The notes under the pieces: generated by a model
Seen by the model: only the letters and a program-made list of their open reading frames with translations
The model's database searches: none
Told to the model about the DNA's origin: nothing
Assembly (NCBI RefSeq): GCF_016612535.1
Contig: NZ_JAENXS010000002.1
Span: 372,001-436,000 of the forward strand
From: Bradyrhizobium diazoefficiens
GTDB taxonomy: Bacteria; Pseudomonadota; Alphaproteobacteria; Rhizobiales; Xanthobacteraceae
Length of the DNA stretch: 64,000 bases
Reading direction: 5' to 3'
In this document: positions 45,146 through 46,525 of the stretch, in pieces
Layout: each line of letters begins with the position of its first letter
How positions within the stretch are numbered: position 1 is the first letter of the stretch
Made by a program: the position numbers and the translations under genes

Positions 45146-45260
45146 GGTGGGTTAGCCACAAGGCGTAACCCACCACTTCTGTTTCTGCGGATGGAGACCG
45201 CGGTGGGTTACGCCGAGCGGTCTGCGCTTTGCGCAGTCCGCAGGGCTAACCCACCCTACG
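45142..45260. repeat. Long inverted repeat (GTAGGGTGGGTTAG family)
   Basis: CGTAGGGTGGGTTAG (45142-45156) is matched by CTAACCCACCCTACG (45246-45260), perfect 15-bp arms around about 90 nt. Inside is another inverted pair, GGCGTAACCCACC and GGTGGGTTACGCC. The left arm overlaps the stop codon of queA. This family is common in Bradyrhizobium-like genomes; it sits between convergent queA and asd and may terminate both. Confidence 0.8.
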
Positions 45261-45269
45261 CAGCTTCCG

Positions 45270-46295
45270 TTACGCCATCACCCGCTGTGGCAACAGCTCC
45301 GCGATTTGCACGGCGTTCAGCGCCGCGCCTTTGAGCAACTGATCGGCCGCCACGAACATCGAGATCGAATGCCCACTGGGATCGCTGAGATCCTTGCGGA
45401 TGCGGCCGACCAGGACGTCGTCCTGGCCGGAGGCGTCGATCGGCATCGGGAAATAGTTCTTCACGCGATCATCGACGACCTTCACGCCAGGGGCCTGCGC
45501 CATGATGGCGCGGACCTGGTCCTCGGTGATCTCCTTCTCGCATTCGAAGGTGATGGCCTCGCAATGGGCGCGCAGCACCGGGACGCGGACGCAGGTGACG
45601 CCGATGGCGATGGTCTCGTCCTCGAAGATCTTGCGGGTCTCCTTGATGACCTTGGTCTCTTCATCGTTGTAGCCGGTCTCGGGATCGACGGCGGTGTTGT
45701 GGTTGAAAAGGTTGAAGGCGTAGGGGTGAGGCATCACCTTCGGCGTATAGACCTGCCCGTTGAGATTGGCGCGGGTGGATTCGACGAGCTCCTCCATCGC
45801 TGCCGCGCCGGCGCCGCTCGCGGCCTGGTAAGTCGAGATGATGACGCGCTTGATGCGGTTCTTCTGGTGGATTGGCCACAGCGGCACCAGCGCGGTGATC
45901 GCCGCGCAATTCGGGTTGGCAATGATGCCCTTGTGATCCCTGATGCGGTTGCCGTTGACCTCGGGGATCACCAGCGGCACATTCGGATCCATCCGGAACG
46001 CGGAGGAGTTGTCGACGACGACAGCGCCGGCCTTGACCGCGAGCGGCGCGTACTTCTTCGAGATGCTGCCGCCGGCGGAGAACAGCGCGATGTCGACGCC
46101 CTCGAAGGCGCGCTCGGTCAATTCCTCAATGACGACATCCTTGCCGCGGAACGACACCGTCTTGCCGGCCGAGCGGGCGCTGGCGAGCGCCTTGAGCCTA
46201 CCGACGCGAAAGCCGCGCTTGTCCATGGTGGCGATGAATTCGGCGCCCACCGCGCCGGTGACGCCGACAATCGCGACGACGGGATCGTTACTCAC
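45270..46295 (-). CDS. asd: Aspartate-semialdehyde dehydrogenase
   Basis: Asd (341 aa) reduces aspartyl phosphate to aspartate semialdehyde, the branch point to lysine, threonine, methionine and isoleucine. The NADP loop is VAIVGVTGAVGAEFIATMDK, the catalytic Cys is in GIIANPNCAAI, and GAGAAAMEEL with ITFECEKEITEDQ follow. The GTG at 46295 is chosen because GGAGG ends 5 nt upstream; a Met codon at 46307 overlaps the same region. A Thr-rich leader ORF and terminator precede it. Confidence 0.95.
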   Translation of the reverse strand: MSNDPVVAIVGVTGAVGAEFIATMDKRGFRVGRLKALASARSAGKTVSFRGKDVVIEELTERAFEGVDIALFSAGGSISKKYAPLAVKAGAVVVDNSSAFRMDPNVPLVIPEVNGNRIRDHKGIIANPNCAAITALVPLWPIHQKNRIKRVIISTYQAASGAGAAAMEELVESTRANLNGQVYTPKVMPHPYAFNLFNHNTAVDPETGYNDEETKVIKETRKIFEDETIAIGVTCVRVPVLRAHCEAITFECEKEITEDQVRAIMAQAPGVKVVDDRVKNYFPMPIDASGQDDVLVGRIRKDLSDPSGHSISMFVAADQLLKGAALNAVQIAELLPQRVMA

Positions 46296-46326
46296 TGTGT
46301 CCTCCATTGAGATCGATTAAGACAAC

Positions 46327-46358
46327 AAAAAAGCCCCGGACCATCATGGGCGGGGCTT
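46327..46358 (-). terminator. Attenuator-like terminator upstream of asd
   Basis: On the minus strand AAGCCCCG and CGGGGCTT form an 8-bp stem with a 12-nt loop, followed directly by TTTTTT. It ends 32 nt before the asd start. The 5' arm GCCCCG can instead pair with CGGGGC inside the leader ORF (46411-46416), the antiterminator option. It could also serve as an ordinary terminator for the gene at 46526-47131. Confidence 0.8.
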
Positions 46359-46388
46359 CGGTAGAGCTGATTGCGTTTTAGTCGACGA

Positions 46389-46460
46389 CTACAAGCGCAC
46401 GCCTCCCCGGGCCCCGAAGGCCGCGGTGGTTTTGGTCGTGCGTTTGGTGGTCGTGAACAT
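46389..46460 (-). CDS. Threonine-rich leader peptide of asd (predicted)
   Basis: A 23-codon ORF, MFTTTKRTTKTTAAFG and then a Gly/Arg-rich end, stop TAG. Seven of codons 3-12 are Thr and two are Lys. Just after them (codons 13-17) GGCC-TTCGG-GGCC forms a small hairpin, and the CGGGGC within it matches the 3' arm of the downstream terminator. This is the arrangement of ribosome-mediated attenuation, upstream of a gene of the threonine pathway. The ribosome site is weak (no clear GGAGG), a caveat. Confidence 0.65.
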   Translation of the reverse strand: MFTTTKRTTKTTAAFGARGGVRL

Positions 46461-46525
46461 GGCGGCGACTTATGCGGGAGAGTCTTGCGGCCGTCAATGG
46501 CTTTTCGGCGGGATTGTGGCCGGCG

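Follow-up and report, generated by a model that had tools for sequence, protein, structure and literature searches.

Why does an asd gene of Bradyrhizobium diazoefficiens carry in front of it a short open reading frame full of threonine codons, followed by a terminator? The product of asd feeds the synthesis of lysine, threonine, methionine and isoleucine. We analyzed a 64,000-nt stretch of contig NZ_JAENXS010000002.1 (the window), for which an initial annotation made from the sequence had predicted a threonine-responsive transcription attenuator upstream of asd. The attenuator was supported by the ORF, the pairings, their conservation and their co-evolution, but its restriction to threonine was not, since lysine codons are involved as well. 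We put at about 85% the probability that a ribosome-mediated transcription attenuator gates this gene according to the supply of Thr-tRNA and Lys-tRNA, a reading in which we infer the start site, the stalling and the amino-acid response. All features described below lie on the minus strand.

The downstream gene is a second copy of asd

The gene (45270–46295, stop included) encodes an aspartate-semialdehyde dehydrogenase, as its product scores above the cut-offs of NCBIfam NF011456 (434 bits) and TIGR01296 (407 bits) and matches Pfam PF01118 and PF02774. The longest frame starts at an ATG at 46307; the likely start is the GTG at 46295, behind the Shine-Dalgarno sequence GGAGG (46301–46305). The source genome has two asd genes that are 46% identical, and the one in the window is the second copy (asd2), which the initial annotation had not recognized as such. 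The canonical asd of the same genome has no such leader upstream. Downstream of asd2, at 45150–45262, the window contains repeated GGTGGGTTA/TAACCCACC segments in both orientations that resemble a dispersed repeat.

A search of 160 genomes of the order detected the canonical gene in 153 (E <= 1e-95). The second copy is present through most of the genus and in one genome of another genus of the same family (84% identity), and it is rare elsewhere in the order, where nine of the 10 positive genomes among 297 belong to the genus, the source genome included. A class-wide sample gave asd2 in 24 of 337 genomes, one being the source genome and the others having 57-78% identity, and a phylum-wide sample of 398 genomes added five matches outside the class at 52-53%. 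All 29 asd2 genomes examined outside the genus also hold another asd, 41-50% identical to the gene in the window; the Steroidobacteraceae-titled genome of locus L160 gave one asd match only. Two genomes, G075 and G533, have two asd2 copies each, and two leader copies each were seen in G075 and G070.

A leader ORF with clustered Thr and Lys codons

The 23-codon ORF announced by the initial annotation is indeed present upstream of asd2 at 46389–46460, where it reads MFTTTKRTTKTTAAFGARGGVRL followed by a stop, and Thr occupies all seven codons that had been named (3, 4, 5, 8, 9, 11 and 12). Two Lys codons, 6 and 10, both AAA, had been overlooked, so that codons 3-12 (46425–46454) comprise seven Thr and two Lys codons. 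When the 340-nt upstream region was shuffled 500 times with its dinucleotides preserved, neither seven Thr codons nor nine Thr and Lys codons ever occurred within 14 codons. The short ORF thus has the clustered codons for products of the regulated pathway that are expected of an attenuator.

Across 110 unique loci of the genus, codon 11 is Thr in all 110, codon 6 is Lys in 109 and codon 10 is Lys in 107. Lys is almost always encoded by AAA in the genus leaders (134 AAA against 19 AAG in 61 distinct leaders), as compared to 14 AAA against 59 AAG in six genes of the window; the preference is absent from leaders outside the genus (49 AAA against 62 AAG). Among 105 leaders, the third position is the most variable in codons 3-12 (0.29, against 0.16 and 0.12 at the other two) and the least variable in codons 13-23 (0.11, against 0.19 and 0.23), suggesting that the first half of the leader is kept as codons and the second half as RNA.

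Conservation within the genus

We evaluated the conservation of the ORF and its Thr codons in relatives, a comparison on which the initial annotation had staked its prediction, and both are kept through the genus and recur outside it. Of 117 same-genus genomes, the source genome included, 111 gave a match to the leader DNA. The six genomes that gave no match comprise four that lack asd2, one that lacks any asd match and one with a fragment at a contig edge. Since 89 of the 110 unique loci had been picked by their leader DNA match, counts from loci selected through asd are fairer. The leader ORF is present in 37 of 38 such same-genus loci, which are mostly best-scoring and hence close relatives, and in 35 of 35 named Bradyrhizobium loci, a set that partly overlaps the first. 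In the exception, L122 (genome G344), the frame is shifted by 1 nt downstream of the Thr codons, so that the leader ORF runs on and the usual stop is lost.

A palindromic repeat of about 50 nt (CATGATCCGGAAAAGTGG...CCGGTTTTCCGA...GATCATG) is found between the terminator and the asd ribosome-binding site in L018, L041, L058, L061 and L077. It leaves the switch untouched in these Bradyrhizobium leaders and is degenerate in L077.

The leader ORF is predicted to be leaderless

A putative promoter that had escaped the initial annotation is located at 46469–46497, with TTGACG as the -35 box (46497–46492), a 17-nt spacer and CATAAG as the -10 box (46474–46469). The boxes are conserved in the 28 regions listed from an alignment of 110 same-genus upstream regions, as far as each of them reaches. 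In 61 distinct genus leaders the best -35/-10 pair scored 8.90 of 12, compared to 5.13 in shuffled sequences, and a TTGACG- or TTTACA-like box together with a -10-like box precedes the leader ATG in most of the loci scanned (99 kept of 101, consisting of 61 from the genus and 38 others). With gaps of 4-16 nt allowed, the distance between the -10 box and the leader ATG was 8 nt in 55 of the 61 genus leaders and 6-12 nt in 36 of the 38 others. A Shine-Dalgarno-like motif was not found before the leader ATG in any of these 61 and 38 leaders, and such a motif precedes the asd start in 109 of 110 loci.

The position of the -10 box and the lack of a Shine-Dalgarno motif at the leader ATG led us to predict that transcription starts at or 1-2 nt before this codon (46460–46462), making the ORF leaderless, as is trpL of Sinorhizobium meliloti. 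B. japonicum does make leaderless mRNAs, with 320 transcription starts located 0-10 nt upstream of a start codon (PMC4842269); the word asd is absent from the main text of that start-site paper, as far as it was accessible. A simple promoter/terminator scan lists neither a promoter nor a terminator at the leader, which its loop and hexamer rules probably explain.

Terminator, antiterminator and protector hairpins

The intrinsic terminator (46327–46358) consists of a AAGCCCCG/CGGGGCUU stem and a U6 tract; in DNA it reads AAGCCCCG...CGGGGCTT, with the 8-bp stem and the six Ts (46332–46327) that had been described. Its distance to asd had been given as 32 nt and is 31 nt when counted to the preferred GTG start at 46295. 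Directly after the Thr codons the leader can form protector hairpin 1 (46410–46422; GGCC-TTCGG-GGCC), just as had been proposed, and the minimum-free-energy (MFE) fold contains it. A small hairpin 2 (46401–46412; GCC...GGC) overlaps the antiterminator strand. The pairing of CGGGGC with GCCCCG on which the initial annotation relied co-evolves across species, but it is only the core of a longer antiterminator, in which a 5' strand at 46403–46415 (GGGGC-CGGGGAG) pairs with a 3' strand at 46352–46366 (CUCU-A-CCG-AA-GCCCC) that overlaps the 5' arm of the terminator. The CCG of the 3' strand lies outside the terminator stem and is nearly invariant in 52 aligned sequences.

Folding the segment whole gave the terminator as the MFE structure (z -0.92 against shuffles), and starting the strand at GGGGC gave the antiterminator, 46415–46403 with 46366–46352 (z -1.54); neither is unusually stable, and a longer segment gave z -1.60. 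The alignment of 52 of 66 sequences, which omits L018, for which the wrong hairpin had been picked, together with 13 similar ones chosen by eye, had no compensatory change in the terminator, the antiterminator or hairpin 1. For the terminator, where 98.8% of the cells are paired, this is because six of its 10 pairs are invariant. Hairpin 2 had 10 cells changed on both sides, a count reached by none of 500 shuffles, and its covariation score was likewise unmatched, but stricter counts were not above chance (two changed pairs, reached by 323 of 500 shuffles, and four pair types, reached by 369 of 500). The evidence on hairpin 2 is therefore mixed, with the laxer covariation measures alone in its favor.

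The case for the pairing consequently rests on other families. The antiterminator duplex averaged -21.4 kcal/mol in 40 non-genus loci, compared to -15.5 in shuffled sequences, with p<0.05 in 24 of the 40. The corresponding values in 61 genus leaders were -19.3 and -15.8 kcal/mol, with p<0.05 in 19. Seven listed members of the sub-clade of the window, the window itself not among them, gave p 0.18-0.37, because the segment is so G-rich. In a permutation of partners that kept 34 dereplicated loci of 101, the true partners paired better than permuted ones (-21.1 against -18.8, p 5e-5), and lineage-specific flanks match their own partner, as CUCUGGU with ACCAGAG in L151 and CUUCC with GGAAG in L165. 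Co-evolution of the antiterminator with the terminator arm is thus seen between species but is not visible inside the genus.

The spacing is similar in both groups. The antiterminator starts a median of 7 nt (genus) or 10 nt (others) after the last Thr or Lys codon, and the terminator core starts 28-32 nt (genus) or 23-29 nt (others) after the leader stop (interquartile ranges). An intrinsic terminator separates the ORF from the gene in the genus; outside it, 31 of 40 loci have at least four Ts in the 9-nt tail after the hairpin, and the T-rich tail is missing after the chosen hairpin in the other nine. The antiterminator overlaps the terminator 5' arm, as in an attenuator, with support for the pairing coming from the cross-species comparison and its exposure by a stalled ribosome being predicted.

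The leader and asd2 recur together outside the genus

A short ATG ORF rich in Thr, Lys, Ile and Met was found in 40 of 65 asd2 upstream regions outside Bradyrhizobium, at the floor of 300 shuffles (p 0.0033), and in seven of nine further regions at the same floor. The total is 47 of 74, or 44 of 68 after removal of six pairs with identical asd among the 65 (three with and three without a leader); 27 of the 74 have no such ORF at p<0.01. Leader-bearing loci carry the titles Reyranella, Rhodospirillaceae, Acetobacteraceae, Parvibaculaceae, Neorhizobium galegae, Steroidobacteraceae and Gammaproteobacteria, where titles of metagenome-assembled genomes (MAGs) may be wrong. No leader ORF was found upstream of asd2 in five Acidobacteriota MAGs, Nitrospirillum and Parvibaculum.

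The Thr/Lys/Ile/Met score was chosen after the leaders had been seen, and a selection by geometry that is blind to composition serves as its check. Requiring an ORF to be followed at a distance of 8-45 nt by a hairpin with GCCCC or ACCCC retained 44 of the 74 loci, three of them copies. Residues 2-15 of these ORFs are 33% Thr, 19% Lys, 5% Met and 5% Ile, compared to 2.3%, 5.1%, 0.1% and 0.3%, respectively, in the other two frames; only these four residues are enriched more than threefold, and 39 of the 44 loci have at least five Thr/Lys. The composition indicates that the regulatory codons are those for Thr and Lys together, with Ile and Met in some lineages, all of them end products of the branch that asd feeds.

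On a tree of asd2 the leader label needs five changes, compared to 22.7 with shuffled labels, and none of 500 shuffles was as low. Near-copies help this low count, ten loci were left out as too short, and the leader label of L142 (p 0.037) and L220 (p 0.053) was assigned by eye. The low count argues that the leader and asd2 largely travel together, and the element reaches well beyond the rhizobia. In L130, L133, L136, L137, L139 and L142, complementary stretches of the GTCTC...GAGA type were noticed by eye just before the asd2 start; they could perhaps hide the asd Shine-Dalgarno sequence as a second layer of control.

Proposed mechanism and alternative explanations

We propose that transcription would start at or beside the leader ATG. 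When Thr and Lys are plentiful, the ribosome would quickly pass the Thr/Lys codons and reach the stop; the GGGGC strand would then be folded into the protector hairpins, hiding the antiterminator strand, and the free GCCCC arm would pair downstream, such that RNA polymerase stops at the U-tract (46327). When Thr or Lys is short, the ribosome would stall within codons 3-12 and cover the 5' side of the protector hairpin. GGGGC-CGG could then pair with CCG-AA-GCCCC, breaking the terminator and letting the polymerase enter asd.

The elements could also be read more simply, with the hairpin as the terminator of the upstream PepSY gene and the ORF as a chance or decayed frame. On the same strand, 65 nt separate the end of the PepSY gene from the leader ATG, so the terminator would stop read-through from that gene too. 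However, the nearest upstream ORF could be named in six of 10 relatives and PepSY is found in none of them (Pfam gave PurK in two, TauD, Abhydrolase_2, a short-chain dehydrogenase and GntR), the promoter between the two genes is conserved, and the leader ORF is under codon-level constraint. We rejected a terminator serving only the upstream gene, an outcome that the initial annotation had set as a test of its idea, because the neighbours change while leader and hairpin stay with asd; this reading is extremely unlikely, and the attenuator survived the comparison. It is very improbable, too, that an amino acid is sensed directly, by a riboswitch or a protein-bound leader, and that the ORF is secondary. 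The low variability of third positions in the 3' half does point to a constraint on the RNA itself, but what persists outside the genus is mainly ORF composition and geometry, as expected for codon sensing, and no Rfam family (4227 searched) reaches its gathering score in the window. The best match has 25.3 bits against 70, on the other strand; we rejected identity with asX2, whose match is on the other strand and far below its cut-off.

Two further proposals concern what the switch senses and does. An attenuator tuned to threonine with incidental Lys codons, as the initial annotation implied, would suit the seven Thr against two Lys codons in the window. It is unlikely in view of the near-constant Lys at codons 6 and 10 in the genus, the 3.8-fold excess of Lys over the other frames outside it and the leaders in which Lys exceeds Thr (L160, L167), and we rejected a Thr-only sensor on account of the conservation and the enrichment. 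The 23-aa peptide, the terminated RNA of about 130 nt or both might have a further role in trans, like peTrpL and rnTrpL of S. meliloti, whose trpL has the same leaderless layout as is predicted here (PMC10117765, as far as accessible). We regard this as quite unlikely, given that the constraint on the C-terminal half concerns the RNA rather than the peptide and that the peptides outside the genus differ widely, and it does not exclude a role in cis.

The attenuation reading would thus be of a classical kind in an unusual combination, with two end products in one sensor, a predicted leaderless ORF, a tie to asd2 and a wide distribution. More tentatively, at slightly less than even odds, the leader may be a sensor of the whole aspartate family, in which a leaderless ORF combines the charging states of tRNA-Thr, tRNA-Lys and, in some lineages, tRNA-Ile and tRNA-Met, and gates a dedicated asd2. 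Switch and gene would then form an old module across alphaproteobacteria and MAGs titled gammaproteobacteria, and in other alphaproteobacteria the canonical asd would be preceded by a separate Thr/Lys leader that lacks a terminator. If the attenuator works as proposed, the branch-point enzyme of the branched aspartate family would be under an RNA switch reading the Lys and Thr branches together, and one of the two asd genes would be controlled by demand, suggesting why a genome keeps both. The leader, which has no Rfam family though it recurs in many families, could provide a model for one attenuator weighing two amino acids, and the switch is directly testable in the soybean symbiont.

Relation to known leaders

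Attenuators such as thrL and those of his, trp and ilv combine a short ORF of pathway codons, an antiterminator, a U-tract terminator and a pathway gene downstream; thrL of the Escherichia coli thr operon has Thr plus Ile codons. The asd2 leader resembles these in all four elements and differs from thrL in its gene (asd, not thrABC), its Thr plus Lys codons, its predicted leaderless ORF and its lack of an Rfam match. Streptococci have the asd RNA motif, an RNA element before asd, and Rfam describes a threonine leader, Thr_leader; neither is among the two Rfam matches of the window in a scan up to E 10.

The following comparisons draw on the accessible part of PMC10117765. The trpL/rnTrpL leader of S. 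meliloti is likewise an alphaproteobacterial attenuator with its ORF at the RNA 5' end (predicted for asd2), but it is a Trp attenuator before trpE and its start is known, whereas that of the asd2 leader is predicted. SEP5 of S. meliloti, a translated sORF, lies in the 5'UTR of a gene called 'aspartate dehydrogenase' and contains six Thr and three Lys codons; it was proposed as a possible leader peptide and described as conserved only in Sinorhizobium. It resembles the asd2 leader as a Thr/Lys sORF in a 5'UTR, but its cluster is near the 3' end of the ORF and that of the window in the first half, and the part of the paper available proposes no terminator switch for SEP5. Its downstream gene is probably asd. 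The statement of the initial annotation that it knew of no described Thr attenuator on asd in rhizobia therefore has to be qualified by this suggestion of 2023; beyond the SEP5 remark, we found no description of an asd attenuator in the openly accessible papers that were searched.

A separate leader type on the canonical asd

A Thr/Lys-rich ORF precedes the canonical asd of the order in 37 of 69 regions at p<0.01 (38 passed, and L276, with a hydrophobic ORF, was left out). In the 30 of these leaders that were inspected the codon cluster tends toward the 3' end of a longer ORF, at a mean relative position of 0.70, compared to 0.35 in asd2 leaders (101 loci). In most of the 30 a CUCUCC-type strand comes next, which has two GGGGAGAG-type partners, one nearby and one farther away beside the canonical asd start, and there is no long U-tract. 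This suggests mutually exclusive hairpins that act on translation or through another termination route, and SEP5 probably belongs to this layout. Alternative CUCUCC/GGGAGAG-type hairpins can be seen in L275, L280 and L260, among others.

No such leader was found at p<0.01 upstream of the canonical asd in nine Bradyrhizobium loci, nor in seven loci of other genera of the family, and no plausible one in 29 asd2-bearing genomes (one of them Bradyrhizobium). Four nominal matches upstream of canonical asd (p 0.003-0.01) have in common an MQPG...MGD motif, which resembles the end of an upstream gene. We dropped the rule that a genome has a leader on one asd copy or the other but never on both, because N. 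galegae has both, its second leader having been counted without a shuffle test; the one-copy pattern is at most a tendency.

No Thr ORF was found upstream of hom, and this clean negative holds for hom only, since the source genome has, about 300 nt upstream of its thrC frame (locus L362), a 44-codon ORF with four Thr (HTSTTD) that leads into a GC-rich hairpin and T5, possibly another leader or a product of chance.
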